Source of the DNA: Fragilaria crotonensis
Taxonomy: Eukaryota; Bacillariophyta; Fragilariophyceae; Fragilariales; Fragilariaceae
DNA: 64,000 nucleotides
NCBI GenBank assembly: GCA_022925895.1
Contig: JAKSYS010000011.1
Span: 62,001 to 126,000, forward strand
Reading direction: 5' to 3'
The notes beneath the pieces were generated by a model that saw only the letters and a program-made list of their open reading frames with translations, was not told the DNA's origin and ran no database searches. Both the position numbers and the translations under genes were made by a program. Shown here piece by piece: positions 2,500-58,462 of the stretch (its first letter is position 1; every line of letters begins with the position of its first letter).

Positions 2500-3267
2500 C
2501 CTCCGTTCCAAAAAAAGAGTGCCATTTGACCAAACAGTAAGGTAAATTCTGGCATTTCACCGAAACGTCATGTCATTTGCATTGTTCGTGATGAAAGGAA
2601 CACATCCATGTATAACATTGAATACAAGCGCGATCGTTTGAATGTTCATTTCTCAGTTTTAAAAGTTAAAAATATGCCATCTATTAGTTTTTAGACTTTA
2701 AGTTTCGATTGGTGACACCACGGACCTTGAGCCCAAGTTAAGACCTTCTCGGCAGACAAAAATGAACAACTTACTTACTGGGCAGAAAAGTCGGAAACTG
2801 TTTTCAGCTTACTGAAGGAGCTCAAAAAGCACGGAAATCGACGAAATTTTTGTCAGGAACGTAACCGCCGTAGGACATGGCCTCGTTTGTGTCTACGACC
2901 AAGTAGGACCGTTTGTGAGGAACACTTAAATGCATTTTTCAATCCGGGCAAACGACAGTTTTGGTTCTTTCAGATATTGCTAAGTAAATGTCTTTCAAAC
3001 TGTGTCAAGACAAAACCATGAATATTTTTATTAATGATCATTCCCTATGTAAATAATGTGTGCGTCAATGAAAGGACAGGTATGACAGGCAGCATAGGCG
3101 GAATTTTTTAAACTTTAGCGGAATTATATCTAAGTAATGGCCGTTGAGACAACGCGAGCATCGCCGAAACGTGGAAACATACTGCTCGTCTACAGCAAAA
3201 TGACCAAAAGACACCAAATGAGAACCCTAATAGAAAATCAAATGGCACTCTTTTTTTGGAACGGAGG
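2500..3267. mobile_element. Stowaway/Tc1-mariner-like MITE, copy 1 (768 bp)
   Basis: Perfect 30-bp terminal inverted repeats begin CCTCCGTTCC, continue with seven A and GAGTGCCATTTGA, and are mirrored exactly at 3238-3267. The element is bounded by TA on both sides (2498-2499 and 3268-3269), the expected Tc1/mariner target duplication. The outer TIR sequence resembles the plant Stowaway MITE consensus. The core shares blocks with the second copy at 57698-58462, for example TCTGGCATTTCACC followed by AAACGTCATGTC near the left end, and GCGGAATTTTTT near the right. There is no obvious transposase, although a minus-strand frame over the right third is conserved between copies. Confidence 0.88.
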
Positions 3268-3767
3268 TAGTAGCACGTAGCATGGCCATATTTAATCATT
3301 GGTGCAACAGACAACAGTCCAATAGTTGATCGGTATCTCGTCATGGCAATTCAAATTTCGGGTTCCACGTTCCACTCCATGCACAGAGAAACGCGCATTT
3401 GTTACATACTCGGTTTATGATACGGAGTGCATCGTACCAGTACACCAGTATCACCTATCCCTGGGACCACACTGCACGGAGGCATTGATCCAGTTACCGG
3501 TACACAGTTCTATGTAGATATACGTATGCATATGCATATGGCTGATAAGAATGATGACATTGGGTCAAAGTATAAAAATGTATTCAGGTCTATATACTAA
3601 ATTTGTTGACCAAGAATGCTATACTGTCTCCTGCAAAGCCTTCAGTATGCATATGCCGTCTCGACACACCCTTACTGCCAGCACGGCCTGGCTCGCCCCC
3701 TTCATCGCCCCCTTCGCAACAGCACATGATGCAACTGTAACCCAAGGGTCGTCAAAGATATCTCAGC
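3268..3767. other. Intergenic, upstream of the Glu-Pro repeat gene
   Basis: About 500 bp without a convincing gene. It holds a near-palindromic TGCATATGCATATG at about 3527-3540 and would include the promoter of the gene starting at 3768. I recognise no specific factor site. Confidence 0.5.
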
Positions 3768-5819
3768 ATGGCAAAGAAGAAGAAGAGTGGCAAGAAGAAG
3801 GGAGTCGCGAGCCAACCCCAGAATACGAATGCTCCAGTTCCAGTCGCTGTGAGTCAAGAACCCGCCAGTTTCGAGAATGAAGGCAGCGAAGAAGAAGACA
3901 TTGTCTCACTGGCTGTTGGGCCACCAGCTGCCGTCATTGAAGACCCTCAGCCAGAGTCTGTCGAGGAAGCTGATCCAGCTTCAGAGCTAGAATTAGAACA
4001 AATTACCGAGCCAGAGCCCGTTGCTGAACCAGAGCCAGAACCAGTTGCCGAGCCTGAACCAGATACAGGGGACGCAGTCGCAGCGCCCGAACCTGAGCCA
4101 GAACCAGCTGCCGAGCCTGAACCCGAACCAGAACCTTTTGTAGAGCCCGAGCCCGAACCAGTTGTAGAGCCTGCGCCCGAACCAGTTGTTGAGCCAGAAC
4201 CAGTTGCCGAGCCGGAGCCAGAACCAGTTGCCGAGCCTGAGCCAGAACCAGTTGCTGAGCCAGAACCAGTTGTTGAGCCGGAGCCAGAACCAGTTGCCGA
4301 GCCAGAACCAGTCGCAGAGCCGGAGCCAGAACCAGTTGCTGAGCCAGAACCTGAGCCGGAACCAGTTGCCGAGCCGGAGCCAGAAGCACTTGTAGAGCCC
4401 GAACCTGAGCCGGAACCAGTTGCCGGGCTGGAGCCCGAGCCAGAACCAGTTGTAGAGCCGGAGCCCGAGCCAGAACCAGTTGTAGAGCCGGAGCCCGAGC
4501 CAGAACCAGTTGTAGAGCCGGAGCCCGAGCCAGAACCAGTTGTAGAGCCGGAGCCCGAGCCAGAACCAGTTGTTGAGCCCGAGCCCGAACCAGTTGTAGA
4601 GCCTGAACCCGAACCAGTTGCCGAGCCCGATTCTGAACCTGATACAGGAGAAGCAGTCGCAGAGCCTGAGCCAGAACCAGTTGCCGAGCCCGAACCTGAG
4701 TCAGAACCGGTTGCCAAGCCTGAAACCGAGCCAGTTGTTGAGCCTGCGCCCGAACCAGTTGTAGAGCCTGAGCCAGAACCAGTTGCCGTGCCGGAGCCAG
4801 AACCAGTCGCAGAGCCAGAACCTGAGCCCGAACCAGTTGCTGAGCCAGAACCAGTTGTTGAGCCCGAACCAGTCGCAGAACCTGAACCCGAACCAGTTGC
4901 CGAGCCCGAACCTGAGCCAGAACCAGTTGCCGAGCCGGAGCCCGAACCAGTTGCTGATCCCGAACCTGAGCCAGAACCAGTTGTTGAGCCCGAACCAGTC
5001 GCAGAGCCTGAACCCGAACCAGTTGCCGAGCCCGAACCTGAGCCAGAACCAGTTGCCGAGCCGGAGCCAGAACCTGAGCCCGAACCAGTCGCTGAGCCTG
5101 AACCCGAGCCAGAACCTGTTGTAGAGCCGGAGCCAGAACCAGTTGCTGAGCCGGAGCCTGAACCCAAGCCAGAAGCAGTTGACGAGCCTGAATCCGAGCC
5201 AGTTGTGGAGCGAGAAGCACTTGCCGAGCCTGAACCAGCTGGACCAGTTGCTGAGCCAGAACCTGAGGTTGTAGAGCCTGAACCGGAGCCAGGTACAGAG
5301 CCTGAACCCGAGCCAGTTGTTGAGTCAGAACCTGAGCCAGTTACTATTGCGTCTGAGCCAGAACCAGTTGCGGACCTCGAACCTGAGCCCGTTGCCGAGC
5401 CCGAGCCTGAACCAATTGCCGAATCTGAACCTGACGCAGCTGCCGAGCCTGAACCTGATCTGGTTGAAGAGTCCGAGCCAGAGCCAGAACCTGTTGCGGA
5501 GTCTGAACCTGGGCCAGCTGTAGAGCCAGAACCCGAACCAACTTCTACCGTTGATTCAAAGGCACCACCAGACGTACCAACGCCTGCGAAGGAGCCACTA
5601 CCAGTTGTTGTAACTCAGCAAGACAAGCAACAGTCAGAGGTGTCCAGCTCGACCGATCTAAGAGATGATTCGGATAGGCCGGGAATGCCAGTCCCCCCTC
5701 CAATCCCATATGCCTACATCTCACATAAGGATATGGAACCTGTAACGGAGAATCGGGCTACAACAGATGATCTCGGCGAATCGATTGCTGCCAGAACGGA
5801 CTGCTGCGCTATTCTCTAA
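3768..5819 (+). CDS. Glu-Pro repeat protein with basic N-terminus and C-terminal CaaX box
   Basis: A single-exon frame of 683 residues. It opens with a Lys-rich head ([12 protein letters not shown]). Residues about 80-590 are an almost pure acidic Pro/Glu repeat built from [13 protein letters not shown] units, followed by a Ser/Thr/Pro-rich tail. The last residues are DCCAIL, so the protein ends in CAIL, a canonical CaaX box; Leu at X favours geranylgeranylation, and an adjacent Cys could be palmitoylated. I infer a cytosolic, membrane-tethered, highly negatively charged extended chain. There is no signal peptide, membrane span or catalytic domain. The very long antisense frames in this interval are by-products of the repeat. 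Function unknown. Confidence 0.85.
4000..5550 (+). repeat. GAGCCXGAACCX-type tandem repeat encoding Glu-Pro
   Basis: A hexanucleotide-based array (GAGCCA/GAACCA/GAGCCC with inserted GTTGCC or GTTGTA) runs for about 1.5 kb inside the coding frame. Near-identical 48-bp blocks recur at about 4440-4570, which indicates recent local expansion. Base changes are largely between synonymous Glu and Pro codons, so the frame has been kept by selection. Confidence 0.85.
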
Positions 5820-6059
5820 TGATGTTTTGGTTGTATGTATAAGTTTTAAAATGTTCCTTACTCAAGGCAAAACCATACGTCGTCAACGTGTATCAAAAGC
5901 GCATTTATTTACTTGACAAGAAACTGGCTCAAGCGTTTCGCAATCCTCGAGTTCATGTTTATATTGATGAAATTCGCAGTGATTATGAACAAACTCCGTA
6001 CGTGGCACAGCTATAGCGACAGGCACATCATGTGTTGTTCAATATAACACCAACTTCAA

Positions 6060-6455
6060 ATTACATCGGGGCAAATTGCACTTACGGAGAGACAACACGA
6101 AGAGAATTATGCGATCATGATGCAGTCAGTGCACGACATTGACCATGATTGGGCTACTCGAACCAATATGCTTTCACAAGAAATCGCTGACGCCACCGAA
6201 GAGGTTAGTCAGCTGAAATCCTTGCTGACCGAGAAGAAGAATAACGCGAGTAAAACAGGCAGTATGGCAGGAAATAATGAACCCGACATTGACAGTACAA
6301 GCACTCACTGCGAATCACAGGGAAAAATTCCCGAGAAAAAGGAAGAATGGATGGCTCAACTTCAACGATCACTTCCTGATCTCTCCTCCTTATTCGATCT
6401 TAGACTGCGACCAAAGGACAGCCAACTACATACATTTATGGCAGAGCGCGCGTAA
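6060..6455 (+). CDS. Hypothetical coiled-coil protein or exon
   Basis: The first ATG is at 6117 and gives 112 residues, but the frame is open upstream to about 6046, so this may be an exon with an unseen 5' part. The first 50 residues are predicted coiled coil by eye (ATRTNMLSQEIADATEEVSQ); the rest is polar and ends in a short hydrophobic/basic segment. I recognise no family. It could be chance coding. Confidence 0.3.
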   Translation: MTSGQIALTERQHEENYAIMMQSVHDIDHDWATRTNMLSQEIADATEEVSQLKSLLTEKKNNASKTGSMAGNNEPDIDSTSTHCESQGKIPEKKEEWMAQLQRSLPDLSSLFDLRLRPKDSQLHTFMAERA

Positions 6456-6993
6456 CGCAATCGTAGATATGTAATGCGCAGTACATAGAAAGTACACCGT
6501 AACTCTATCAAAAATGGTAGGAACAACGCTAATCGTGCGCTGGGACAAGATAGTTCTCTTGCACAAATTTTGCTGACTCAACTTGATGTTTTCTTGACCA
6601 AGTTCCGCAATAAAGCAAGCTGTCAGCTTTCACAATTCCTCCCATTCGATGACACAACCAGTTGTTGTGGGCCCCCCTCAACTTCTTGTAGACAATCTCG
6701 AAGATACACTTGGTGACGAGAAGGGCTCGCTTGAACTGTACTGTGTGTTGCGTAGGACAGTACGGTGACTCTAGTATGGCCCAGTGCCGAGTCTGGACTA
6801 CTATCAAATACTTGTTCTACTGTATCTTGCTTCACCCTCAAGTACACAAGCACCGATATTGCGACATGCTCCAGTACAGAGTACAAGTACTGGAGTACGA
6901 TACCAGGTACGAAGTTCGTGTAGCACATCCTAAAAAAGGGATCGCTTCAGTATTATCTTTGCAACTATGACTCGTCACGAGATCAATGAAAAA
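6456..6993. other. Intergenic between convergent genes; GTAC-rich cluster
   Basis: No gene is seen. A GTAC-rich palindromic cluster (CCAGTACAGAGTACAAGTAC and neighbours) lies at about 6838-6925, between the 3' ends of the flanking genes. Confidence 0.5.
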
Positions 6994-9761
6994 TTACAAC
7001 GTGAACTGAACTCCCTCACAGATCAGATCATAAGGAGGAGGGCTTCTCCCAACATTTCGGTTCAGGAGAGCAACATAACATTGGTTTGGATTCAAAGGCC
7101 ACTCTGTGCCTGGTCCGTACTCATTGTATTCCGGTAAAGGATCCTGAAAGACCAGAGTGCCACTGGACGGAGCTTCACCTTCGGCGCAAACATCGTCGTA
7201 GCATGTCCACAACCACGCATCTGGGTGATAGTTGTAAGTGGCTTCGTCATTTTTCTTGCACTTATACTGTGATTATGTTGTGAGATATTGAAAAAAAGCA
7301 ATGGTGGGCAAAAACAAGCAGAAATCACATTCGGTAACTTACGAGGCCGAGCCAATCGTCGGGTTGTGGGTCCGGGTTGGAGAATTCAACCGTGATCTTT
7401 TCACCATCTCGGCAGACGCAGGTTGAAACGCAGTCCGCGGCTGCTGTCTTCGATGTTGGCGCTGGAGTGGCTGCGACTGGGGCGCCTGCGACTGGAGTGC
7501 CGCCAAGTGTGGGCTCACCAACTGCTGGTGGCAGAACAGGAGACCCTGTCGGTGGCGGAATAGGAGAGCCAGTCGGTGGCAGAACAGGAGAGCCAGTCGG
7601 CGGCACAACAGGAGACTTGGTGGTTTCCGTAACGGGCGGAACAACTGGCGTAGTCGTTGGTGGCGGAGAATTAGCATTACTTGCTGGTTGCTTCGTGTCG
7701 CAAGGACAAACTCGTCGGCAGCGACCACTACTTCCACTTGCTCCTTTCTTTGCCCCTGACAAGCGACGGTATGCATCATCGCCTGGCGTTTGGCCCGTCG
7801 CGTCATCACCAACGGCTCCCTGGCCTCCTTTGCCTTTGGGGGTCTCGTCGCCAGGAGTTTTGCCGCCGTTTCCACCCTTGCCTCCTTTGCCTTTGGGGGT
7901 CTCGTCGCCAGGAGTTTTGCCGCCGTTTCCACCCTTGCCTCCTTTGCCTTTGGGGGTCTCGTCGCCAGGAGTTTTGCCGCCGTTTCCACCCTTGCCTCCT
8001 TTGCCTTTGGGGGTCTCGTCGCCAGGAGTTTTGCCGCCGTTTCCACCCTTGCCTCCTTTGCCTTTGGAGGTCTCGTCGCCAGGAGTTTTGCCGCCGTTTC
8101 CACCCTTGCCTCCTTTGCCTTTGGAGGTCTCGTCGCCAGGAGTTTTGCCGCCGTTTCCACCCTTGCCTCCTTTGCCTTTGGGGGTCTCGTCGCCAGGAGT
8201 TTTGCCGCCGTTTCCACCCTTGCCTCCTTTGCCTTTGGGGGTCTCGTCGCCAGGAGTTTTGCCGCCGTTTCCACCCTTGCCTCCTTTGCCTTTGGGGGTC
8301 TCGTCGCCAGGAGTTTTGCCACCGTTACCCTTTCCATCCGGAGCGCATGGTTTCTCCTTGCCAATGCTGCAATCACCGCAGTCGCCTGTGAGGTCAGAAA
8401 GATGAGGGACGCACTGCAAAACACAACAAATGCATTGGGTATATTTCATACGTACATATTCCTCGGAAGCACGAACAAACGCAGTCATCATTTGATGGAG
8501 GTGCATTATCGTCGGTTTGCACCTTTCCACCAGGTGGAGTGCCCCCGCCTCCCTTGCCTTTTGGGACATCATCGGTCGGCCCCGCATCATCGGTAGATGG
8601 TGGTCCGCAGTCGCCCTTTCCTCCACTGCAGCCCTTTCCTGGAGGTGTGTTGTCATCGTCAGGTGGGGTTGTGTCGTCACTTGGCTTCTTTCCGCCAGGC
8701 GGAGTGCCCCCGCCTCCCTTGCCTTGTGGGACGTCATCGGTAGGCGGTCCGCAGTCGCCCTTTCCTCCACTGCAGCCCTTTCCTGGAGGTGTGTTGTCGT
8801 CGTCCGGTGGGGTTGTGTCGTCACTAGGCTCCTTTCCGCCAGGTGGAGTGCCTCCGCCTCCCTTGCCTTGTGGGACATCATCGGTAGATGGTGGTCCGCA
8901 GTCGCCCTTTCCTCCACTGCAGCCCTTTCCTGGAGGTGTGTTGTCGTCGTCAGGTGGGGTTGTGTCGTCACTTGGCTCCTTTCCGCCAGGTGGAGTGCCC
9001 CCGCCTCCCTTGCCTTGTGGGACATCATCGGTCGGTCCTGCATCATCGGTAGGCGGTCCGCAGTCGCCCTTTCCTCCACTGCAGCCCTTTCCTGGAGGTG
9101 TGTTGTCGTCGTCAGGTGGGGTTGTGTCGTCACTAGGCTCCTTTCCGCCAGGTGGAGTGCCCCCGCCTCCCTTGCCTTGTGGGACATCATCGGTAGGTGG
9201 GGTAGCATCATCAGTGCCTCCAGGAGTATCGTCGTTCACGATATAATCGTCATCGCAGACGTCGAAGCACGCACAGTCCTCGTCAGTGGGCGCGGCTTCC
9301 TTCATCGACGAGGTCAGGACACGGAGGGATTCGATTCTTTGGTTCTCTTGCCTCACTTCTCTCAGGTTTCGGCGGACATACAGGGGCTTATCTTCGACAA
9401 GGTTTCTGTTCTGTGGAAGGCCTTGTCCGTAGCATACACATTCGCCATCTGGGATTCCTCCTGAAGCAGAATCGACCGGAGCTGGGACTGGCGCTGGAAT
9501 TGGCGCTGGGGCCGGCGCTACACCACAGCCACACGTTTCTTTGATCATTTCAGGCAAAAAACCGCATTGGTCTAGTGGGATTTGACCATTGGTTCCCGCT
9601 TGTTCGAGGGCGCCACACGGCACCGCAGGCTGCCCGGTGAAAGTATAGACTGCATCAGGCAATCCTACAGACAATCCAGTTCCACAGACGGAACATTGCG
9701 CTTTGACAGATGCCACGAGAGCTGCGGCAATCGCGACTCTGAACATCAAGCCGTTCAACAT
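6994..9761 (-). CDS. Secreted two-block Gly/Lys/Asp repeat protein, three exons
   Basis: My model joins exon 1 (9761-8456), exon 2 (8385-7343) and exon 3 (7266-6994). The introns are 70 bp (GTACGT...CACAG) and 76 bp (GTAAGT...CACAG). The exons sum to exactly 874 codons including the stop, an 873-residue protein. It starts with a signal peptide (MFRVAIAAALVASVKAQ), then a Cys-rich module (CSVCGTGLSVGLPD ... CGCG). A block of about 48-residue repeats with DDVPQGKGGGGTPPGGK follows, then nine 19-residue repeats (GGKTPGDETPKGKGGKGGN), then a Pro/Thr/Val linker. The C-terminal domain (ITVEFSNPDPQPDDWLGL ... WLWTCYDDVC ... WPLNPNQCYVALL) resembles the beta-sandwich modules of other secreted diatom proteins. 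It is probably extracellular or wall-associated. Splicing is inferred, not shown. Confidence 0.8.
7820..8340 (-). repeat. 57-bp minisatellite, about nine units, within exon 2
   Basis: Near-identical 57-bp units encode GGKTPGDETPKGKGGKGGN. Units differ by single bases such as GGGGGTCTC versus GGAGGTCTC, which implies very recent expansion or gene conversion. The length is a multiple of three, so copy-number change would not break the frame. Confidence 0.9.
8520..9215 (-). repeat. About 144-bp repeat, 4-5 units, within exon 1
   Basis: Units encode DDVPQGKGGGGTPPGGK, then a Glu/Pro/Ser/Asp-Thr-Pro segment, then GKGCSGGKGDCGPP. Some units carry an extra TDDAGP. Two Cys per unit could support disulfide cross-linking. 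The array is independent of the 57-bp array of exon 2. Confidence 0.85.
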
Positions 9762-12228: not shown

Positions 12229-12285
12229 GGAGCAGAGATTCAACAGAAGTCACCAGGAGAGAATGCACAGAAGTCAGGAGCAGAG
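11735..12285 (+). repeat. Lys/Glu/Gln-coding minisatellite
   Basis: Imperfect units of roughly 66-72 bp contain AGCAGAGATTGAACAGAAGT and CACCAGGAGAG. The array links the DUF6824-like segment to the ATR-like segment; apart from one TAA its last part shares the reading frame of the latter. Confidence 0.75.
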
Positions 12286-12288
12286 AGT

Positions 12289-13410: not shown

Positions 13411-13411
13411 T

Positions 13412-22245: not shown

Positions 22246-22260
22246 ATTCTTTCTTTTGTC

Positions 22261-32555: not shown

Positions 32556-33640
32556 ATGGTGATGTTGCCATGGCCAGAAGACCATCGTAGTCCTGGTCAA
32601 TCGTTCCTGTGTGCACGGTATCAACGTTTCACCTACTCCTACATGAATCGAGTGCTAAGCATTGTGGCAAAGCAAGAAGTGAAAAGCGAAAACGATGGAA
32701 CGTATCTGACTCAGGATGACTTGTATCTCTTCGAGTAAGTTTATCCCGACATGACTCGTGGGATGACCTACTTGTACGTACGTCGTGCACCAGGGAGACC
32801 TATTCGCTCACACTCGTTGTTGTCATCCTTGTCATTCTCGTCCACAGCAAGTACTACGAAGAAACCAAAACTCCAAACACAGATTACTAATGACATTCTG
32901 GAAATTGGCAGCTCCCAACTTCATTCCTGGCGGAGTCAACCAACTCGTTACTGTATTGGCTCAAGTGTCTCTCCCACTCTTGGTGCGAGAATTGCTCACC
33001 ATTTTAGAACAGAATCCATATCAAAGTATCGTACAACAAGGACTGCCGTACGTTGTTCTCATTTTCGTCGCGTCCATCCTGAATGGCTTTGCCACCCACC
33101 GTCATCGACATTTGTCCACCAAGGCCGGCATTGTTGTGCGTGCCACCGTGGTATCGGTCGTGTATAAGACAGTCTTGCAGCTTTTGCCTGCCGGCTGTGC
33201 AGGACTTACATCAGGACAAGTTACGAATCTAGTCGCGGTGGACATTCAGAAGGTATATGAAGTCTTTATGGAAGGCCATTTGATAAGGTCGTGTCCTCTG
33301 GGTATGGTCCTGGTCGGAATATGTTTGCTCGTCGTCTTGGGACCCTCAACTTTGGTGGGTATGTTGATATTATTTATCTTTGTTCCCATTGTCAAGGCAA
33401 TTGCATCAATTATGGGGAGAATACGCCATCAACGAGCGTTGATTACAGACATTAGAAACTCAGCAGTCAATGCTCAACGGCATCAAGGTAACGAAATTGA
33501 ACAATTATGAAGGAAAGTATCGAGATTGGATCGAATCCTCGAGAACCAAAGAGTTGAAATTGCTTCGCAGAGAGCACTTTGTATGGGCCATGACTCTTGT
33601 CTTCACCGTGTGCTCTCCGTTGCTGGCGGCAGCCGCTACC
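32556..33640 (+). pseudogene. ABCC (MRP-type) transporter, first transmembrane domain fragment
   Basis: An opening piece (32556-32735) reads RFTYSYMNRVLSIVAKQ ... LTQDDLYLFE, the ABCC pre-TMD1 signature. From about 32890 the frame encodes a membrane bundle (LVTVLAQVSLPLLVRELLTI; GLTSGQVTNLVAVDIQKVYE; PTLVG-like loop). After a frame change at about 33460 it gives MLNGIKVTKLNNYEGKYRDW, the conserved coupling-helix region. A GTAAGT donor at about 32734 and a CCACAG acceptor near 32849 suggest an intron, but that splice does not restore frame. There is no nucleotide-binding domain: after SPLLAAAATF the frame passes directly into a Pro/Thr repeat. It is a broken fragment. Confidence 0.75.
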
Positions 33641-36600
33641 TTTGTAACTCCTCCCCCAACCACACAGCCGACGGCAGCTCCAAGCCCTAGGCCTTCTTCA
33701 GGGACACCAACAGGTCAGCCGACAAGCGTTCCTACTGCTCCACCGACTTCGCCTCAGTTAGATATACTTCCGACGCATGTGCCAGAGTGTAAACCATCCC
33801 AAAATCCAGCTAAGGATGGATCAGGTGGGAGCACAAAACCGACTAGCCTCCCTAATGCTCCTTCTTCCCAAGCACCGCATCCCTCCGCGACGGCAAAGCC
33901 TTCATCCAAGCCTACCACCCCACCAACCCCGCGTCCCACGGATTCGCCGACTGCTCCTCCAAGCCCGAGACCCTCTGTGTCACCAACAGCTGGGCCGACT
34001 CATACTCCCACTGTGGCTCCAACGTCGCCCCAGATCGATACACCTCCAGCACACATGCCAGATTGTAAGCCATCTCAAACACCGACCGTAATGGACTCCT
34101 CAGCATCTCCAACCAAAGATGGATCCAACACGAGTCCAAAACCCACTGCGTTGCCAACTGCTCCGCCCAACGTGATGCCAACATCAGCGCCAACAGCTCC
34201 GCAAACATCTCCTCCAACGAAGACAACGACTCCTGGGACAACCGCGAAGCCTTCGACTTTGCCAACGACTTCTCAGACTGCGACTCCAACCAAAACGCCA
34301 ACAGCTTCTCCAGCCGCGAAGCCTTCAGCCCCTCCAACGCCGCGTCCGACTTTGGCGCCGACTGTGTCTCCGACGTCTCCTTCCACGCCAGCACCGAACT
34401 CCAGTGGAACCGCAAAGCCGTCTTCAAAGCCGACGACTTCTCCGCCTTCTCCACTCGATAAAGCACCGACAGGTTCCCCGACCGCCAAGCCTGCGGCGTC
34501 AGGCCCGACCGCTTCTCCGGGATCTACCATGACGGGAGCACCGAATTCAAGCGGAACCTCGAAGCCTTCAACGAAGCCAACGACGTCTTCGCCAGCCACA
34601 GTAACAAATGTTCCCCAACGGCCAAGCCTGCCGCGTCAGGCCCGACTGCTTCTACGGGATCTACTTCTACTGGAGCACCGAGTTCTAGTGGAACCGCGAA
34701 GCCTTCAACGAAGCCATCCACTTCGCAAACCGCTTCTCCGGCAAACGCACAAACAGCTTCCCCAGCCGCGAAGCCAACCGCACCTCCAACGCCGCGACCA
34801 ACATCATCGCCAGCAGTGACTCCGACAACTCCTTCAAGCCAAGCACCGAACTCCAGTGGAACCGCGAAGCCTTCGACCAAGCCAACGACTTCTTCACCAG
34901 CTACACTATCCACAGCTTCTCCAACGTCAAAGCCTGCGGCGTCAGGCCCGACTGCTTCTCCGGGATCCACTACTACTGGAGCACCGAATTCCAGTGGAAC
35001 CATGACGCCGTCTACCAAGCCAACGACGTCAAAGACAGCCTCACCAGCCGTAGTACCAACAGCATCTCCAACAGCGAAGCCTGCCGCGACAGGTCCGACT
35101 GCTTCTCCGGGATCTACCACTACGGGAGCACCGAATTCCAGTGGAACTGCAAAGCCTTCTACGAAGCCACCCACTTCACAGACATCTTCTCCGGCAAGCG
35201 CCCAAACAGCTTCTCCAGCCGCAAAGCCAACCGCGCCTCCGACGCCGAGACCAACTTCAGCTCCTACAGCTGCGCCAAACGGAGGACCGAATCCCAACGG
35301 AACTGCAAAGCCGACGACTTCTCCGCCTTCCCCTTTCGACAAAACACCGACAGGTTCCCCGACCGCTAAGCCTGCCGCGTCAGGTCCGACTGCTTCTCCG
35401 GGATCCACTACTACTGGAGCACCGAATTCCAGTGGAACCGCGAAGCCTTCGACCAAGCCAACAACTTCTTCACCAGCTACACTTACCACAACTTCTCCAA
35501 CGTCAAAGCCTGCGGCGTCAAGTCCGACGGCTTCTCCGGGATCCACTACTACTGGAGAATCGAATTCCAGCGGAACCGCGAAGCCATCTACCAAGCCAAC
35601 CGCGTCATCGCCAACTGCTTCTCCAGCTTCTACGCCAGCACCGAATTCCAAAGGAACCGCGAAGCCCACTTCCAAACCATCCACTTCTCCGCCTTCTCCA
35701 CTCGATAAAGCACCGACAGTCTCGCCAACCGCACCTCCAACGCCGAGACCAACGTCACCTCCAACAACTCCATCAAACGGAGGCCCGACTGCCAACGGAA
35801 CCGCAAAGCCACCTACGAAACCAACCGCATCATCGCCAACTGCTTTTCCAGAGTCGTCTACGCCATCTCCGAATCCCAAAGGAACCGCGAAGCCTTCGTC
35901 AAAGCCTACCACGTCACCGCCTTCTCCACTTGATAAGGCGCCGTCAGCTTCCCCAGCCGCAGTGCCTTCGGCTCCACCCACGCCGAGACCAACTTCAGCT
36001 CCGTCGAAGAAATCGCCGACTCCAAAAGGAAAAGGAACACCGAAGCCTTCGTCAAAGCCAACCACCTTACCGCCTTCTCCACTTGATAAAGCGCCGTCAG
36101 CTTCCCCGAACGCAACGCCATTTGTAGCTCCAACGCCGAGACCAACTTCAGCTCCGTCGAAGAAATCGCCGACTCCCAAAGGAAAAGGAACCCCGAAGCC
36201 TTCGTCAAAGCCAACCACCTTACCGCCGTCTCCATTTGATAAAGCGCCGACAGCTTCCCCGAACGTAATGCCATTTGTAGCTCCAACGCCGAGACCAACT
36301 TCAGCTCCGTCGAAGAAATCGCTGACTCCCAAAGGAAAAGGAACCCCGAAGCCTTCGTCAAAGCCAACCACCTTACCGCCGTCTCCATTGGATAAAGCGC
36401 CAACAGCTTCCCCAGCTCACACGCCAGATTGCAAACCGGTCGAAACACCGACGGCGAATGACCCGCAACCGTCCCCAACCAATAATGGATCGAACGACAG
36501 TACAAGACCTTCCCCGATGCCCACTGTTTCTCCAACCGCCAAGCGTACGCGCCCTCCAACCCCAAGACCAACTTCATCCCCAACCGCCATTCCAACCACT

Positions 36601-36768
36601 CGTCCATCCAAAGCCCCTTCCAAAGCACCAACCCGTAGGCCTTCCAAAAAGCCAACAGTTCAACGTCCAAAAATCCCCACTGCTCCTCCAACGTCTCCCC
36701 AGTTGGATAAACCACCGACGAATGTGCCACAATGTAAACCGGCCCACACACCGACCATCCCGTATTGA
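33470..36768 (+). CDS. Pro/Thr/Ser-rich repeat protein (PT-repeat), fused behind ABCC fragment
   Basis: From about 33640 the frame encodes over 1000 residues of PTxxPT / SGTAKPSTKPTTSSPA repeats. Occasional single-Cys modules (LDxxPTHVPECKPSQ, PDCKPSQTP, PQCKPAHTP) occur near both ends. Two open stretches (to about 34605, then to 36768) are in different frames, so one frame change lies near 34605. Such domains are heavily O-glycosylated in secreted and adhesive proteins of diatoms. Here no signal peptide precedes it; instead the upstream reading is an ABC transporter fragment. The recurrent Cys modules may mark original domain ends. Long antisense frames here are by-products. Confidence 0.65.
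33640..36560 (+). repeat. Degenerate Pro/Thr-coding tandem repeat, about 2.9 kb
   Basis: Higher-order blocks recur, for example GTCAGGYCCGACTGCTTC then GGGATCYACTACTACTGGAG, and near-identical copies of about 126 bp at 35985-36375. The 3' blocks are the most homogeneous. Confidence 0.85.
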
Positions 36769-42597: not shown

Positions 42598-42727
42598 TTT
42601 CCTTCTTTGGGCACTCTGGTAACGTATTGACTCTGTTCTAGTTGTATGATCTGCTTGTCGCTGTTCGTCATTATTAGACAATGTGAATGTGTCGATGGTT
42701 TGTGAGATTTCAGCAGTGTGCAACACG

Positions 42728-47337: not shown

Positions 47338-47801
47338 AGTTCGCAATCGACTTCAACTGAAGATCGGCATGTTGACAAAGATAAGACTTGAGGGTACTTT
47401 GAACATTTGGAAACAGGTACCAGGTGCGTGTACCGTCAGTTTAGCGATAGAGAGTAGAGTTCGGCCTTGGTTGTCTACCAATACACTACCTTGTCAAACG
47501 ACACCAACTAGAGCATGCTGGCACTATGTGAGAAGACTACAGTAACTGTCTGAAGCCCAATCGCGTAGCTCACCGACTTCTTATGTGTTTAATGCATACT
47601 ACCTTAATCCAAAGACCTGGCACAGCGTTGCATGCGTATTGGTATTTTACATCATATGCAGGGGAAGATAATGGCGCTCAATTAGATTGCAGGTGCCTTG
47701 CAGCACCCACCTCTTTGTGATGATCCGAAACACATCCTTCAACGAGAATCCATCGTTCGGGTAATCAAGATTGGGCATAAATTATAAAAGAGCTCATCAC
47801 A
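47338..47801. other. Intergenic between convergent genes
   Basis: About 460 bp with no recognised gene or repeat. Confidence 0.4.
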
Positions 47802-49132: not shown

Positions 49133-52100
49133 GCTTAGGACTTGGGACAACGTCGCTGGTCGCTGGTTGCTGGTTGCTGGTATGCGAATTAATGACGAGA
49201 GGCCGTGTTGCTCTGCAACTTGTGAAGTTGTTGTACTAATCATATCATACATGTGTACCGGTTTCCGGTACTTGTATGCATAGTACCCGTACCACGTGTA
49301 TGTCATACTTCTATGCATAGTACCCGTACTAGTACCACGTGTATGTCATACTTCCGTAAGACATCCATTACAAGTATCGCCCTATGTCATACTGTCATAC
49401 ATAATTTAATGCTATCCCTATCCCTGTCATGGTACGAAATGGCCTGAGGTTTCTCCTTCAAGGTTGAGATTCAGGCCTGGTGGAATTCTTGACAGCCGCC
49501 TCTTTATCATATTATCACAGAAAACATTACACAGATACTCAACCGGAACTCCCTTCATCCTGAACTAGTAGCTCAACCTGCAACCTGCAAGCAACCCTGC
49601 TTCAAAGAACTCAACAGGAGCCAGAAAAATATTCATGGCAACAATGAACACAAGCCAAAAGTGGAGGATTCCATCATATGATTCTGTCGCTTGGAGTACC
49701 AAATGATTGGAGCTCCAATGATATAAAGGATCACGCCAGTATACACCAACTAATGCATCTACTGGCAACCAGCATGATCAGTGTCAACAAAAAAGTCATC
49801 ATCACTGGCTTGTTCCCTTGCGGTTCAGGCATGTTCTCTGATATTGCTGCTTCCTTTGCTGGCAGCATCACAGTAATACTTGGCACTTTGACCAATTCTG
49901 CAGCCATGGCAAACTGTCCCAGGTCATAGCTTGGCTCTGTATCATCAAACATCATCATCAACTGATCAAACTACTTCAAATACACAAACACATGGAACAA
50001 CTGCTTGGAAGGAAATGGAACAGGACACGAAACTGCTTCCTGCTGGTGTTCTTTCCTGAGGCATTAGCACCTCAAAACTGAGAACAGCATGCGCCATGAA
50101 CATGCATGTTTTCCGTGATACATGCCTGGACATGCCTTGAACTGTCTACCAACAGCGAACCATTGCATGACCGATGACGCATGCGGCCTGTTAAGGTAAT
50201 GTGATTCTTGTGTAGAATCCATCACCAGATTGACTAGTACCATTATCGACCAATGGGGTTGAAGGGACGCCTCCATTCCCCCTCAAGTCATCAGAGGGAG
50301 CCGCTTCAGCAAAATCTGCAATATTTAAATATTGTATAGGAACTTCAATCAGCCACTGATATATTCATACTCTCACATGACCACATGAAGCAGAAAAGAA
50401 CTAATATTGTTTCACATCAAAATTGGTCCCAATTCTGAACCAAAATCACAGTCGCCACATAGCTATTGGTGTTGGTTTGGCGGTTCCTTGTCACGAGCGC
50501 AAACTCCACCACACCAAAAGTGCAAGCACAACCGCCTCTCCTGATGTATGACAGCTAGTGGCCATCACAGCGTTGCTAGTACTGGTGTCGGTTTGGCGGT
50601 TCCTTGTCATGAGCGCAAACTCCACTGCACCAAAATCGCAACAAGTGCAACCACCACTTTTGATGTATGACAGGAGGTAGTGGCTATTGCAGCGTTGCTA
50701 CTGGTTAAGGATGATTGTCAGCTTGACCTTGGGAACAACAGTGACACAATTACAACAGTGAGCAAGAACAACACCGACGCAACAACAGTCAAGGAACAAT
50801 AAGCATCAAAAGCAGCAACAGTAATGAATTGTGGCAAAAATGTGAATTTAAGCCTAGCAGCAGATACTACTACTAGTGTGAGCGGTTCGATATTTTCAAA
50901 CTACTAGTAATATGTGGCAACCGGGCCGGCATCAATTTTGGCAAACGTTCAAAGCAAACACACATGTATGTGTGCAGACTCCGTTTGAAAAATTGCATTG
51001 CCGATTTTTCAGGATTCCTATGATGTCACGGTTACGAAGTTAGAGTGCCAGTTAATCGGATCTGGTGGTACCGTAGTCGAATCTGCTTATGGCTGTATAT
51101 CATAGTAGGCATTGTACCAGGTACAAGTACTCGTACAAGTCCTTGTACCTGTGCTGCTGTGCTTGTACTCGGAGCATCTCGGATGGATTTCTTCACAGCG
51201 CGAGAATTAAAAAAGAAGGTGCGCTTTGTACATGTACTATTCAGTGATGAATAGAATTAATCAATAAGAATATAAAAGCATGTGTATCGATGTGATGTAT
51301 AGAATCAATCAATACTAGGAACATAAAAAATGTGTGTCGATGTAGGCCGAAATGAGAAGCCTTGGTGTCATCTGAAGGCAATCCTTTGATGGAGGACACA
51401 AATGAAATACAAAAAGGAATAGTTTCTCAATAGTGCACATGAAGGAATAAGATAAGCTTACTTCTTGTACCTTACAATCAAGGATACTCTGCTTTCTGTA
51501 TCTGTGCTTGAGACTTCCTGCAGTGGAAAGACATCACATTGATGAGGAGTCACAGGTTGTCCAACTTTCCTCTAAACTTTTGGCTTCTCCACTTGAAACT
51601 GGCTTGAGCTGGTCTACTTGCTTTTCCTCTCAAACAGAGGGCTGGGCATTCATCAGAATAACAGCAACGGCACTGCCATGGCATTGATCAATTATGCTCC
51701 TTGCACAGGATCAGGGGGAAAGAAATACAAGTGGACATCAATTAAGTAACAAGATTTGAGCAGGTTTAGGAGAAAATTGATTTGGGAGCATCATGCTCAC
51801 AAAATTCATCCAGGAAGTTTGCTTGAGTCAGGGAAATTAATGACGTTTTTGAAGGTCAGATTTGTGCAGCCAAATTGTATTTCATAATTGTCTACTTTGA
51901 CTAACAGTCTTTGACTGAATTTGCACCTGAGTCTGTAGAGGAGGAATAACAAGCCTTTAGTAGGACTCTTCCTTAGTTTGAGCGCAGCAGAATTTATGAG
52001 CTCATCCAAACAAAATGTGCATAGAACAATTTCCCTTGTCTGTCATGGGAAAAATGGGACGATTTTAGGTCTCTTATCTGAAATTTTCTCTGGCATTCCT

Positions 52101-54805
52101 TGTCGGCGTGGATTTGCCTCACCAATTTCTTTAAGTTACACATGTCATCTGGTGGGTTCTATGGACATCATGAGAACAACACTTAAAGAAATAGCAAGGG
52201 TTTATAGTAGGTCAGAGACCTTTTCTAGTTTTCTCGCAATGCAGGCATACATTTGAAGAACGCGTTAATGCACAGACAAAAGAGCAGCAAAACACAATGG
52301 AGGATGTGCTGTTGAACTGTGGTATTCTTGGTGATGCAAAGAGCTTAGACAACTTGGTGGTGTACTACACTGCTTGCTGGTATGGAACCCATTCCTACAT
52401 CTTGATATTTTTGAATGACCAATGCATGATGTCTCAGTTTGGGAACTCATAATGACCTTGGTGGTCCTCATGTGCCTGGCTTTCTGCCGCCAGGTGCTGG
52501 CTAGGCGTGACAGTTGAGTTCAGGATCCAATCCTCTTCGACAATTTAGGGGTTAGGGGTTGAATTTGGATAAATCTCCATGTTATGGGAAACGCCATTGT
52601 CTATTGTTCAACCAGGATAAAAAATGAAGGAATTTCCTTCCACTTTCCCTGAAGCTTAATTGGACTACTAGGGTTCAGTTATTGAAGGGATTTCCTTAAC
52701 GAGGAACACTTAAATAACACATGAGAAACACCTTTCTCCAAATACCAGGCCGTCGTTGCGATTCCCTCAGAATTCCGTCGAAAAAGCTTATGCACCGTCA
52801 GACTTTCAACTACGCAATTTACGGTACTGTATGTACGTGGGGTGCAACGTGGAACTACTCGGAGTTCAAGTCCCTCTGCTAATGGGTAAGGTACAGACTT
52901 GACTTTTCCAACGATACTTCGAGACATTTTGCTTGGTCCGATTCGACCATTTTTCTTCGGCACTTACATAGTACTTACATAGACGCTATCTGCTCGTCAC
53001 TCCCCTTCGCCAGTGCCGGAGCACACAATGTGGTACTCAACAATTATGGTCCATTCTGTAAGTGTGCGCGTTCCAACCTTTTAGGTACGTCGTCGATCTT
53101 GGAGCCAGTTGCTGGTTGCTGTGGGATGAAGAGGCGCGATGAAAAAGAACGACGTGCTACAGGCTACAGTATTCTGTAGGAACCCTGGTGTATCACCAAT
53201 TTCTGGAGGGCACTTACTCTGTTCGAAACACCAGAGCTACTAGCTCTAGTCTACTCTGCGCATAAATGTTTCACTCTACAGCGGTAGTGCCCGAGATGAT
53301 GGAAAAATACTTGTTAACCAGGAACTACAAATAGGAACTCGCATACGACTAGCGTAGAACTCCCTCACTATTTTCTTTTTTCTGAGTCTTCACACGATTA
53401 AAAACACGAGCCATAGGAGATAGGAGGCAATCATCGTGTTTTGGCTAACGTACTAGGTGCCGGGAGTTTAACTAATAGGGCATCCTACCATCCAGCATGT
53501 TAGGAAGCGACCATTGCTTTCTCTTGAGAGCTACGTTCATATTCATCGGAGAAGCTTTCCGACTTGCTCGTACACGAGCATTCGCAGGCAATCCTTGGTA
53601 TCGGGCATCGCGCCATGGAACTCAGCGCGTTCTGCTATGTACGAGAATGACGATATTCGTCGGAGACGCTAACTATTGGCTCCAAACCGTCTATACGATC
53701 GCTGCCACGTAGTACTACTCCCTAAGGGAATAGTCATGATATGATCAAGATTAAACTACGAACAATACGAGGCGACAACCTCGGGTATCTGACAAAATGT
53801 TAGGTTGCGTCTTCACTCTCCACTCTCCACTCGCCACTCGCCACGTTCAGAAACGACCAATGCACTCTGTGTGCAGATAAATGTTAAAATTCGCAAACCG
53901 GCCTCTTAAATGAAACAAGTCAATATATCTCATTTTCATGGTCGTTGACTCCTGGTTATTCCGGACGAACATGACAATTTGGGTTCAAGAATCTTGACTT
54001 TGAAGGTGACTAAAGACTACAGTATAGCGAACATAAAATTATTATACGGGATACCTTTCCGATGATCTGCAAGGACTCCCCGTAATAGTGTGGACCAATT
54101 GGTGTACACTTCGTATGGAAAGTGATGACCCTAAGTCCGAATGTCCCACGTACGTCAAGTTCTACTAGACGTCTGAAATCTCTAAATCGAAGTTTCAAGG
54201 AAAAGCATATATTTAGTTGCGAGCCTTCTGCTTTCGTGACAGCAGAAATTTGGGTCAGTTGAATACATGAAGCATCAAGTGTCGTTTGGCTCGTAGAAAA
54301 CCACAGCAACTGCAATTATTTATACAGATTCGTGAGTGGTTCTGTTCTGGAGCATCGCATTCCATTCCCATTTGGGGCATATGAACGCGCTAAACATTCA
54401 GGATTCTACCAATGCCAGCGATGACGTGCTCGTCCCATTTGCTAAGTTCCTACAATACGACATGGCATCTGGCAAGACTCTCGACAAAAAATGCAATCCC
54501 GACAGGCGTAATGTGTCTTAAACATATATGGATACCCGATGCGGTGCGGAAGTCAGAGGATATAGTTTGAAATAAGAGATAAACCTGACCGATGCAAAAC
54601 GTTGTTGTATCAATCTTTTGTTGATGATTTTCAGTTACCACAGCAGCGTGCGAGGTAAGCAACAATTTGGTTCGATGTTGAGTTGTCGCTCATTGGTGAA
54701 TGACGTAGTGGTGTTTCCCAAGTATACGATATGACATTAAATGCCATGTTCTGTGACGTGCTGTACAACTCATTTCAACTTCTCACAATCACACACATAT
54801 CAGGT
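49133..54805. other. Gene-poor 5.7-kb region
   Basis: No convincing gene. It holds GTAC clusters at about 49245-49400 and 51055-51240, a 115-bp tandem duplication at 50469-50703, a short tandem repeat around TGTGTATCGATGT / TGTGTGTCGATG at 51240-51345, and AT-rich sequence at 51350-52300. Short frames such as 49731-49961 (minus) and 51978-52256 (plus) have no recognisable motif; some may be transposon remnants. Confidence 0.45.
50469..50703 (+). repeat. 115-bp tandem duplication
   Basis: The unit from GGTGTTGGTTTGGCGGTTCC to GCAGCGTTGCTA-type sequence occurs twice in direct orientation (from 50469 and 50583). The copies differ at many positions and by small indels, so it is not recent. Non-coding. 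Confidence 0.85.
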
Positions 54806-56344
54806 ATGAATCCCGACGAGAGCGATGACGAAAGAAATGATTATTGGATAGAACCAGATGCTATCAATGAACGCATTTTCATCACCAACAAAGGAGCACT
54901 ACCTGATCTTGTCAAGATGCGCACACCTGCGTCCGCAGTTGCGGTGGCCAAGAAGTTATCTGCAGCAGCAAAGGGACCAGCGCCAGTCAAAAAGTATAAA
55001 AAGGCTCCAGATGCACCTCGTCGATTTAAGAGCGCATTCATCTTCTTCTCCATCGAGAAGCATCGGGAGATTCGGGAGTCGCTCGCCAGTGGTGGAGAGG
55101 TTGAGAAGGTAAGATTTGCGCTACTTCAAGTTGCGATGTCGGCCACGCCTTACAGGTACTAACATGATATGTTCACTCAATGTGCAGACCACTAATGTTG
55201 CCAAGATGGTTTCGGCATATTGGAAGTCAATGAGTGCAATGGAACGGGAAGTCTGGGAAGAGAAGGCTCGCAAGGATCGAGCGCGGTACGAGGCTGAAGT
55301 TCTGACGTACAAGGGTCCGTGGAAAGTGCTTGCCAAACGTGAAAAGAAACCACACGATGCCCCTAAGCGCCCCATGTCAGCATTTTTATCATTCTCGAAC
55401 AAACGGCGCTCGGATGCTATGAAGAACAATCCGGGCCTAAGTCAAGCAGAGATTTCAGCCCTTCTGTCGAAAATGTGGAATGATGCACCTGCTGAAATTC
55501 GTGATGAGCACATCAAAAAGGAACAAGAGGCACGCCTTGTGTACAAGGAGGCTATTGCCATATGGAGAGAAAAAGACAGTCAAATGAAGTCGAAGGAAAG
55601 ATCCGACCGTGAAGCTAAGGCTCAGGAAACGGTGGACTCTATTGCCAATACCACGCTTATGGCTTCAGCATCTCGACCAGAGCAAGTTAATCTTCTTGAA
55701 TCAGATTCGATGATAAGCGTTGAACCATCACCTTTGGACAGCCGTCTGTTCTCTTCTGTTTCAGGTGCTCCGCAAGAAAGCTCTGTTAACTTGCTTTCTC
55801 AAAGGCGTACAGTTGGGCAAGACACCAAGAGGAGACTTTGGAGCAAGTCTCCAGCCTTCTCCCAATAGCGCAGCACCAGTACCATCAGCAGCAGACCGAC
55901 TTAACACTTGCGAGCATGATCCCCAACATGTGGGCTCAGCAACAACAATCATCGGCGCTTTGGAGCAGGAATGCAGCGTTTCAACAACCACAGATGGGGT
56001 TACTACAACGTCAGATGGCACTTCAACAGCAACGAAGTGGAATGCAGTCACAGACGGATCTCTTGCTAGATGCTAGTTCCAGTACTAGCCTCCAGCATCA
56101 ACTGATCCAATTGGAGAGAGGTGTTGGAGGCGTGCATCATCAAATGGAACTTCAGCAATATCAACGTGAATTTCAGGCACTCCCCGATCCTCCATTGGAC
56201 CATTTTTCCGTGCTTAGTCACCAACATCAACCAGGAGCAGCTGTCGGAGACGTGCACATAGGCGCTAATTTCTCCAACTCCCATGTGTATACGGATGGCG
56301 ACGGCCGAGTCCTCGATTGGGGTGACTTTCCTCTTGGTGAATGA
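54806..56344 (+). CDS. Two-HMG-box DNA-binding protein with Gln-rich tail
   Basis: Exon 1 (54806-55108) and exon 2 (from 55188) join in phase over a 79-bp GTAAGA...TGCAG intron. HMG box 1 (residues about 69-143) has PRRFKSAFIFFSIEKHREIR, AYWKSMSAMEREVWEEKA; box 2 (about 155-230) has PKRPMSAFLSFSNKRRSD, LSKMWNDAPAEIRDEHIKK. Both keep the Pro, aromatic and Trp positions of sequence-non-specific HMGB boxes. A Ser-rich linker leads to a Gln/His-rich tail (HQYHQQQTDL) that is in another frame; a short intron (about 55765-55830, GTGCTC...CCAAG) or one indel must join them. Likely a nuclear chromatin-architecture or transcription protein. Confidence 0.85.
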
Positions 56345-56750
56345 GTTAGTTGTTTTTGACTGTGACTCTCTGTAAGCGTTTGAATTCGGAGTACCGCTAA
56401 GGCTCGAGTCATAAAAGCTTGCATCGTTTCAGTTTTCAGTATCCTAGCTAGAGAGCAAAGTACTCTAGCTAGAGTCGGAGTATCTAATATGAAAGCACAA
56501 CGCATTATTCACATACTGTCTACGTCCGATACGACATTAATCAACAACAGAAGCATACAAATATATGGTTTGATATCGAACCGATGTATGCACAATACCA
56601 TCATACCATCATACACAGAATGAAGTACGAATTCTGCAAATCGAATCACAACGTCACACCAGTCACAAGTCACAACACTCGACGACTCGACGGCATGTCT
56701 GGAAAGAAACCCCATTCTCGTATCGCTCAACCAAGTGCCAAGCAAGCCCC
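56345..56750. other. Intergenic, no gene seen
   Basis: About 400 bp between convergent genes. It holds the short repeats AGTACTCTAGCTAGAGT and CTAGCTAGAG at about 56440-56480. Confidence 0.4.
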
Positions 56751-57690
56751 TCAGATTCGTTTGACTTCAATCGTCACGCGGTCTTGTGGCATATGCTCCA
56801 TTTCAACGTCATCGCCACCGCCACCGCCGCCGGCAGCCTCCAACACCTCTCGATCCAAAGGGTGAATATTCATAACCGCGTAGGTTCCGCCCGATGGGCC
56901 CTTGGCAAGGTGGCCAGGGTTGACCACTACTGTCGAGTCGCACACAGCACGGGCAAACCATGCGAGCTTGGATGGCAGAATCAACACATCAGGTCGGCAT
57001 GGCATTTGGCAGCATTTTAGTTGACGAAAACCCAAGTTTGTCCCCAAAGCTGGTGGAAACAGAGGATAATAGCTCCGTTGCTCCAAGAAATGTTCTACCA
57101 TGCGAGTCAATCGAGATCCTGGCGCAAGGTTCGCGTTTGCCTCATCGGCGCTCATTTGAAAAAGCGCATCGTTCGATGTTATGCCAACGACCATTTCATT
57201 GATTTGAAGTGTGCATGGATTGGGAACACACTGAATGTGACGAGGATCCCCTCCCATTCGTCCAGCGTTCTCAACGTGGTGCAAACCAAGTTTCCCCAAT
57301 CTCAATACCATTGGCACCTGGAAGATTGAGCATCTTGCCTTCCTGAGGCAATCGATCCGCCAGAGGAGCCTGAGAGAAAACCCACCGCGCTACCGCATCG
57401 TCAAGGCTTGGTGCAAGGATGGATTGAGTTTGCAGGCCCGCGTCGCTCTCAAACAACTCTTCCACCAAGGATGAAGACTTGTTGGCGAAAAATATCTCAT
57501 ACGTAACTTGCATTTTAGTCCCGTCGTCGAGCTCCAATGTCGTTTCGCTGTTGGCAAAATGGACGAACGGGCCCAGCAGCATGACAACATCCGGCTTCTG
57601 TGAGCGAACAATCTCGATCAAATCCACGAGAGGAGCATTGATGCCCAACACCAAAGATATCATGATTGGCGCTGGAATTTTTGAGATTGC
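56751..57690 (-). pseudogene. DNA polymerase alpha subunit B (POLA2), C-terminal half
   Basis: The distal part matches POLA2: ITSNDALFQMSADEANANL, VEHFLEQRSYYPLFPP, PDVLILPSKLAWFARAV and VVNPGHLAKGPSGGTYAVMN. The proximal part (LVDLIEIVRSQKPDVVMLLG) matches the inactive phosphodiesterase-like domain. The two lie in different frames, changing near 57300. Upstream the homology ends close to the MITE at 57698-58462, and beyond it (58463-59297) I find no N-terminal half. A TTCCAG-type acceptor near 57670 leaves open that the MITE sits in an intron. POLA2 tethers polymerase alpha to primase and is normally single-copy and essential, so this is probably a spare, broken copy. Confidence 0.75.
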
Positions 57691-57697
57691 ACTGGTA

Positions 57698-58462
57698 CTC
57701 CCTCCGTCCGAATATAGTAGTCCCACTTAAACTTTCAGTCGAGAAAATTCTGGCATTTCACCAAAACGTCATGTCATTTGCATTGCTCTAAATGAACACT
57801 ATCGATCTATGTATAACATCAAATGCATGCGTTTTGATCTGAATGTTCAAAATTGAGTTTTCAGGTCGCAATTTTCGAAATAAATTTTTCTTAAGGCTTT
57901 AACTCGCGCAGATGACCTCCCCGGTCCCAAAGCTTCCGTTACGACTTTTTCAACTATACATGACGAACACAAAACGTACTGGGGGCTAAACAAAATAAAT
58001 CGTTTACAGAACGCTGTGATACCTGAAAGGTTGCAGTCCTGACGGTAGTTTTGCTTGAAGTCATTAACGGTCATTGCTCATGGCTTTTATGTGCTTAGTA
58101 AATCAATATGGCACCATATAGGAAAAACTAACGGATTCTGTTAATTAAAAATCGTGTCTCGAATTGCAAGGACACTTTTCCTCATACAAGGCTCATTCAA
58201 AACTTTATGTAACTATTAGTGGCCTTTACTTTGAATACTGTTCCGTTTCCATGTGTTTCATTCAACATGATATATGGAATGCCAATTATGCGGAATTTTT
58301 TGTCACAATGCGGAAATTTCTCTAAGTAGCGTCGGTTGAGAGAGCGCATGCCTCGCCAACATGTAGAAAGATACCAACAGCCTACGTCCAAATGACTGAA
58401 AGACACCGGATGGGAACCCCTTGAAAATATTAGTTGGGACTGCTATATCCGGACGGAGGGAG
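57698..58462. mobile_element. Stowaway/Tc1-mariner-like MITE, copy 2 (765 bp)
   Basis: Terminal inverted repeats of about 33 bp with a few mismatches start CTCCCTCCGTCCGAATATAG and are flanked by TA (57696-57697 and 58463-58464). The start equals the plant Stowaway signature CTCCCTCCGTCC. The core is homologous along its length to 2500-3267 (TCTGGCATTTCACCAAAACG; ATGTATAACAT; GCGGAATTTTTT). The inner TIR sequence differs from copy 1 but stays symmetrical within this copy. Confidence 0.88.

Follow-up and report, generated by a model that had tools for sequence, protein, structure and literature searches.

Introduction

A 64,000-nt stretch of the genome of the diatom Fragilaria crotonensis (contig JAKSYS010000011.1 of assembly GCA_022925895.1, positions 62,001 to 126,000 of the forward strand; hereafter the window) carries two elements, A and B, whose ends resemble those of the Stowaway miniature inverted-repeat transposable elements (MITEs) of plants. 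Their terminal inverted repeats (TIRs) raise a question that was noticed in a first-pass annotation of the window: why does the inner part of the TIR differ so strongly between the two elements when the two arms of each element are alike? Arm-to-arm conversion or selection for pairing had been suggested there. Here, we searched one assembly of F. crotonensis (62.1 Mb, 881 contigs) for related copies and for transposase-bearing elements. We conclude, with a probability of about 0.82, that A and B are Stowaway-like MITEs without a transposase of their own, that they represent the plant-type (DD39D) mariner group in a diatom, and that the subfamilies to which they belong are deletion derivatives, each of its own autonomous ancestor.

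Both window elements are flanked by TA and have empty sites

Elements A (774 nt) and B (765 nt) have TA target duplications on both sides, as the first-pass annotation had proposed, and the empty sites agree with them. Its bounds were exact for B (57698-58462) and 3 nt short at each end for A (2500-3267 instead of 2497-3270). The arms of the A TIR (CTACCTCCGTTCCAAAAAAAGAGTGCCATTTGA) are identical at 33/33 positions and those of the B TIR (CTCCCTCCGTCCGRATATAGYAGTCCCA) at 26/28; the mirror symmetry that had been ascribed to the inner TIR of each copy is therefore complete in A and imperfect in B. Full-length copies of A with an identity of 98-100% were found on C806, C495 and C603, and full-length copies of B with 87-98% identity on other contigs. 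No coding capacity was seen in A or B, as no open reading frame (ORF) of at least 200 amino acids overlaps either window copy.

The boundaries of both elements are supported by the empty sites. For B, the joined flanks align ungapped with C280:37113-37251 over 139 nt; of the two mismatches, one falls inside the TA itself, which reads CA on C280. Of the 140 nt of joined flanks queried for A, 96 align with C34:57973-58068 at 100% identity and with a single TA, and a longer alignment contains one 3-nt gap further left. This second empty site lies on the same contig as A, 6.45 kb upstream, and paired matches of 83-85% with a spacing of 6.45-6.47 kb are present on C464, C51 and C66. From this spacing we infer that A entered a long terminal repeat of a retrotransposon and that its empty site is the sister long terminal repeat. 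The flanks of A themselves (window positions 2427-2496 and 3273-3300) have the appearance of a retrotransposon long terminal repeat.

Copies in the genome form at least four subfamilies

In the homology searches, 40 of 75 candidates were scored for A and 40 of 60 for B, and all copy counts are therefore lower bounds. Together with a search for the TIR pattern TACTMCCTCCGT, these gave at least about 30 loci in at least four MITE subfamilies in 62 Mb, which does not bear out the abundance that the first-pass annotation had expected. In subfamily A, both ends are present at 5 loci (L001-L004 and C113), and there are additional fragments. In subfamily B, they are present at 20 loci, of which 12 are of type B1 (L009-L018, C373/C438, C576) and 8 of type B2 (L019-L023, L025-L027). 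Subfamily C (748 nt) is represented by two MITEs (L043, L044) and subfamily D (637 nt) by one (L045). The pairs L019/L024 and C373/C438 were each counted once because their members share flanks (for C373/C438 judged from the flanking letters). The arm table covers loci other than C398 (A-like, right end missing) and the partial copies L008 and L034, and older A-like copies with 66% identity over most of their length and without recognised TIRs are present on C198 and C376.

The search for further TA-flanked copies was successful: TA stands on both sides of 18/20 B loci, 5/5 A loci (arm table), 2/2 C loci and the single D locus (1/1). With the exception of L019/L024 and of short repeats, the flanks of the copies are unrelated. 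Near-identical copies sit at unrelated sites. Types B1 and B2 are separated by their core identity, which is at least 93.8% within B1, at least 93.2% within B2 and 88-92% between them, in a matrix of the B loci other than C373/C438 and C576. Two copies contain inserts. The A copy on C113 is interrupted by a 3.4-kb insert (L039:1697-5114) with ORFs that, by their motifs, appear to resemble a PIF/Harbinger transposase, and the B copy on C373/C438 holds a 1,366-nt insert (L040:695-2060) with inverted ends of its own (AAGGCCGTTGTTATACAAG).

The inner TIR is specific to the subfamily and matched between arms

In an alignment of A, B1, C and D, whose columns at the left end run 3 ahead of the element positions, mean identity (left/right) was 85/77% at columns 1-15, 48/47% at 16-30, 51/46% at 31-45, 78/74% at 46-60 and 89/88% at 61-75. 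At both ends a subfamily-specific stretch is sandwiched between two conserved stretches, and its identity of 46-51% is low, yet above the level of unrelated letters. At positions 11-28, the two arms within an element match at 18 (A), 16 (B1), 18 (B2), 17 (C) and 18 (D) of 18 positions, whereas the left arms of A, B2, C and D match one another at 7-12 of 18; these same left arms agree at 9-10 of 10 over positions 1-10. Because arms match within and not between subfamilies, the symmetry puzzle raised by the first-pass annotation is real at the subfamily level.

Within subfamily B, the arms were compared base by base at 17 of the 20 loci (L018, L025 and L026, in which an end differs, were set aside), and none of these 17 shows a mirrored substitution. 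Changes at TIR positions 14 and 21 of the right arm are shared by all 12 B1 loci (L018 by eye) and never occur in their left arms, and L016, L020/L021 and L027 carry further private changes, each confined to one arm. Since the two-base asymmetry is common to all 12, the B1 loci have spread with imperfect arms. The arm data in subfamily B speak against ongoing arm-to-arm conversion, and neither conversion nor selection for pairing finds support as a present cause of the symmetry; arms that vary independently, which the first-pass annotation had itself named as contradicting its idea, are what subfamily B contains.

The mirrored change that was seen concerns the outermost 4 nt, which are gone at both ends in L004 (subfamily A) and L018 (B1), with TA still flanking both elements; in L026 they are gone at the left, and the right end is altered. 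Cutting or reinsertion at a shortened end may account for the loss in L004 and L018 and is the sole explanation we can offer.

Homology between subfamilies is concentrated in subterminal blocks

A BLAST comparison of A with B aligned only A 1-152 and 599-731 with B 1-152 and 590-722, and clear homology is limited to the terminal 150-175 nt or so on either side. The full-length homology claimed in the first-pass annotation was rejected: the best local alignment of the A and B cores scored 20 against a shuffled mean of 20.2 and was reached by 101 of 200 shuffles, and the global signal is weak. Global core alignments, scored as z against dinucleotide shuffles, gave 5.7 for A/B at positions 180-590 (3.3, 4.5 and 1.7 for the narrower pieces at about 240-530, 180-380 and 380-590), 3.6 for A/B2, 3.5 for A/C (4.4 in a second run) and 3.4 for A/D. 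The pairs B/C (-0.2), B/D (1.4) and C/D (-0.8) lack this signal; B2/C gave -0.1 and B2/D 2.2. The core of A may retain a weak remnant of common sequence.

The subterminal block occurs together with different TIRs in A, B, C and D and in two transposase-bearing families, E (C522) and F (C807). That the left and right blocks are inverted copies of each other was not supported for A, C, D, E and F (the score was reached by 77-172 of 300 shuffles) and was borderline for B1 and B2 (17 and 12 of 300). The block of A to F is also found about 70 nt inside the unrelated TIR (TACCGTATTTCACGGAGATTTGTACCC) of a 364-nt MITE family, G (L050:1831-2194 and other contigs), of which at least 31 places cover at least 327 of the 364 nt, with 40 of 95 candidates scored. 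By eye, the sequence adjoining the block in G resembles the TIR of F.

Transposase-bearing elements as candidate partners

Transposases were searched for with Pfam DUF7769 (PF24964), a mark of plant-type mariner transposases and plant mariner-like elements; 6 matches were obtained in the genome. A complete element at C807:102921-105014 spans 2,094 nt, has TA on both sides and a TIR (CTCATCTGTTCCAAAATGAATGC[TG]CG) of about 26-28 nt, and contains one intact ORF of 480 residues from ATG, whose protein scores 33.7 bits for DUF7769, above the cut-off of 27. Between catalytic aspartates two and three lie 39 residues, both in C807 and in the C522 fragment; the catalytic positions were placed by eye with the help of motifs typical of the DD39D group. 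The spacing and the DUF7769 domain suggest that C807 belongs to the DD39D class. Its left end bears the subterminal block of the MITEs (31 nt, 97% to A). The element on C150 begins with the TIR of subfamily C; its left end is 88.9% identical to MITE C over 171 nt and is followed by a transposase N-terminus. It adjoins one half of a G MITE (C150:558-747), as if it had inserted into it.

When the genome was searched with the C807 protein, 57 matches were obtained, and the only one that is full-length without a stop is C807 itself. C807-like left ends also occur on C672, C71, C260, C797 and C482 (73-84%). The C807 protein has no tblastn match at E <= 10 in A, B, C or D, nor in the A-like loci L046 and L047. 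DDE_3 (PF13358) was rejected, with no match in the genome at E <= 0.001 and a score of 19.9 bits for the C807 protein, below the cut-off of 28.6. The pogo-type DDE_1 (PF03184) has 28 matches in the genome, several of them in long open frames; a pogo transposase was rejected as the partner, as PF03184 is absent at E <= 0.1 from the C807 protein and from two C522 pieces. A predicted structure of the transposase was discarded (mean predicted local distance difference test score 34.7), the search of solved structures gave one match at E 0.98, which is not meaningful, and none of 6 pattern matches in viral contigs was confirmed by tblastn.

Origin of the subfamilies

We propose that each of A, B, C and D would have arisen by deletion from its own autonomous mariner-like ancestor, of which roughly 150-180 nt were retained on either side; for A, B and D such an origin is putative. 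They would move by cut and paste into TA, with a DD39D transposase supplied from elsewhere in the genome and binding both ends, and the C807- and C150-type transposases presumably mobilise A and B. The outer 10-12 nt are common to the subfamilies, and the subfamily-specific inner TIR (about positions 13-30) is probably contacted by the DNA-binding domain of the cognate transposase. Because one cognate transposase must bind both ends, the inner TIR would be alike at both ends and different between subfamilies. Separate deletion derivation from separate autonomous lineages would thus explain the arm symmetry without conversion, and inheritance from these ancestors is the simpler account of why the arms agree within a subfamily. 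The high/low/high conservation from the tip inwards at both ends supports this proposal, as do the TA-flanked copies, the empty sites of A and B, the C807 and C150 elements, and the identity of the first 12 nt of B and D with plant TIRs. Several observations weigh against it. C807, the one full-length open transposase, has a TIR that opens CTCAT, not CTCCC (the TIRs of C150 and C522 open CTACC), the C150 element is cut off where its contig stops, and the C522 copy is broken. The autonomous mariner-type partner that the first-pass annotation had asked for was found in the form of a relative (C807) and of an element with the subfamily C TIR (C150), but none of the elements found to bear a transposase has exactly the TIR of A or of B. 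In addition, the signal between the core of A and those of B, C and D counts against fully separate origins, because separate deletion origins do not predict it.

The likeness of the ends to plant Stowaway could be fortuitous and the elements unrelated repeats. A TIR 10-mer is indeed not rare in the window when one mismatch is permitted (5 found versus 2.75 expected), and the TIR pattern TACTMCCTCCGT has 72 sites in the genome where its reversed control still has 41. It is the paired, TA-flanked, many-copy arrangement that exceeds chance: the presence of many TA-flanked copies whose two ends match, the empty sites, and the same subterminal block in an element with a D-39-D transposase argue strongly against coincidence, to which we give practically no credence. 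Recurrent gene conversion or template switching between the arms inside the MITEs would keep the inner TIR arms alike and would accommodate both the agreement of arms within, compared with between, subfamilies at positions 11-28 and the loss of the outer 4 nt at both ends of L004 and L018. The lack of mirrored substitutions in the B loci compared and the asymmetry common to the B1 loci oppose it, and we consider it improbable.

In a further scenario, one subterminal block was repeatedly joined to new ends by TIR swapping or outer TIR addition. The block is found with differing TIRs in A to F, and in G it lies inside an unrelated TIR beside sequence like that of F; rapid TIR divergence along separate autonomous lineages would nevertheless give the same picture for A to F, and no recombinant with both parents turned up, though no systematic search was made. 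We hold this scenario to be possible but rather unlikely. It is a doubtful suggestion, too, that subterminal blocks and TIRs evolve as separate modules, one block being combined with at least six mariner-type TIRs and in G buried inside a wholly different TIR, with the ends that a transposase recognises replaced as a matched pair and the remainder left in place. Deletion from separate autonomous ancestors is our preferred reading. As several subfamilies have subterminal blocks in common but differ in the inner TIR, they are naturally suited to finding out which parts of the ends determine the specificity of the transposase.

Relation to Stowaway and DD39D elements elsewhere

The elements share with plant Stowaway MITEs the TA target, the TIR opening CTCCCTCCGTCC, a length below 800 nt, a family-specific inner TIR, the absence of visible coding capacity and a related DD39D mariner in the genome. 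They differ in their diatom host, in a size of 637-774 nt close to the upper limit, and in that A and C open CTACC. The first-pass description of MITEs with Stowaway-type ends was borne out; the opening CTCCCTCCGT is exact in B and D and one base off in A and C, which read CTACCTCCGT. The carrot TIR mask CTCCCTYYSKYMC, which is the search mask of one carrot study and not a family definition, fits A, B1, B2 and D with one mismatch each and C with three (PMC6881990). Carrot has about 4,000 Stowaway elements (PMC6881990), compared with the lower bound of about 30 loci in the diatom. The first 12 nt of B and D are identical to the TIRs of bamboo Ppmar2 and carrot Dcmar1/DcSto7b and to a primer for a rice Osmar14-TIR construct (PMC6696609, PMC6881990, PMC3660474). 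Rice and bamboo TIRs are described as holding two boxes in which changes alter transposase affinity (PMC6696609), and carrot Dcmar1 as having a 31-nt TIR in common with the MITE family DcSto7b (PMC6881990). By analogy, the diatom pattern of a common outer end and a subfamily-specific inner stretch fits this plant literature.

C807 agrees with DD39D mariner-like elements (PlantMar; Guest/GT) in its D-39-D spacing, DUF7769 domain, size of 2.1 kb, TA target and TIRs of about 26-28 nt; unlike them it has a diatom host and a TIR that opens CTCATCTG, not CTCCC. A few DD39D elements in Chromista are reportedly listed in a survey of this group. A 2020 survey gives angiosperms and a few oomycetes as the hosts of the plant mariner family and prefers the view that plants acquired it by transfer, the sources being of the kind of oomycetes, fungal pathogens or viruses (PMC7325037), and an incomplete DD39D/GT element with a TIR starting CTCCC is described from a stingless bee (PMC8472432). 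An occurrence of DD39D elements beyond plants is therefore no novelty in itself, and the diatom elements extend the host range of a known Stowaway/DD39D kind. The submariner MITEs of Pandoravirus salinus, for which an autonomous partner in Acanthamoeba has been proposed, are likewise TA-flanked Tc1/mariner MITEs outside plants; by their description, they differ in belonging to a novel Tc1/mariner subgroup and to another host (PMC4495683). Mariner-like elements have been reported from the diatom Amphora acutiuscula (Nguyen 2014, cited in PMC5963040). The full text of a paper on araphid-diatom repeats does not contain mariner, Stowaway, MITE or DNA transposon (PMC12718438). No report of Stowaway MITEs in a diatom appeared among the titles and abstract openings listed for Stowaway with diatoms or algae, most subscription papers lying outside the literature covered, and a literature search with a motif gave papers that are unrelated by title. 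This alga, too, harbours a small number of members of a group known chiefly from plants. With its open DD39D transposase, its Stowaway-type MITEs and insertions whose empty sites survive, the diatom provides a useful data point on how mariners reached plants.

Feature coordinates and other observations

Table 1. Positions of the two MITEs and their parts in the window.
Feature	Position	Strand	Remarks
Subfamily A Stowaway-like MITE	2497..3270	+	774 nt; TA both sides; 33-nt perfect TIR; empty site; near-identical copies
TA target duplication, left of A	2495..2496	.	
TA target duplication, right of A	3271..3272	.	
Left TIR of A	2497..2529	+	33/33 identical to right arm
Right TIR of A	3238..3270	-	
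Left subterminal block of A	2542..2651	+	element positions about 46-155; present in A-D, C150, C522, C807
Subfamily B (type B1) Stowaway-like MITE	57698..58462	+	765 nt; TA both sides; empty site; copies elsewhere
TA target duplication, left of B	57696..57697	.	
TA target duplication, right of B	58463..58464	.	
Left TIR of B	57698..57725	+	26/28 identical to right arm
Right TIR of B	58435..58462	-	bears B1 changes at TIR positions 14 and 21
Left subterminal block of B	57743..57852	+	element positions about 46-155

Long open frames composed largely of low-complexity repeats (EPEPV, GKGG, PT-rich, SSASIASEE) occupy window positions 3768-5819, 7325-9211, 33470-36768 and 59921-62047. Elsewhere in the genome, the silicon-transporter family has 19 matches, 18 of them above the family cut-off and part of them in tandem, which marks the genome as that of a diatom, and a single open frame of 1,456 residues at C97:29749-33762 contains three silicon-transporter domains.

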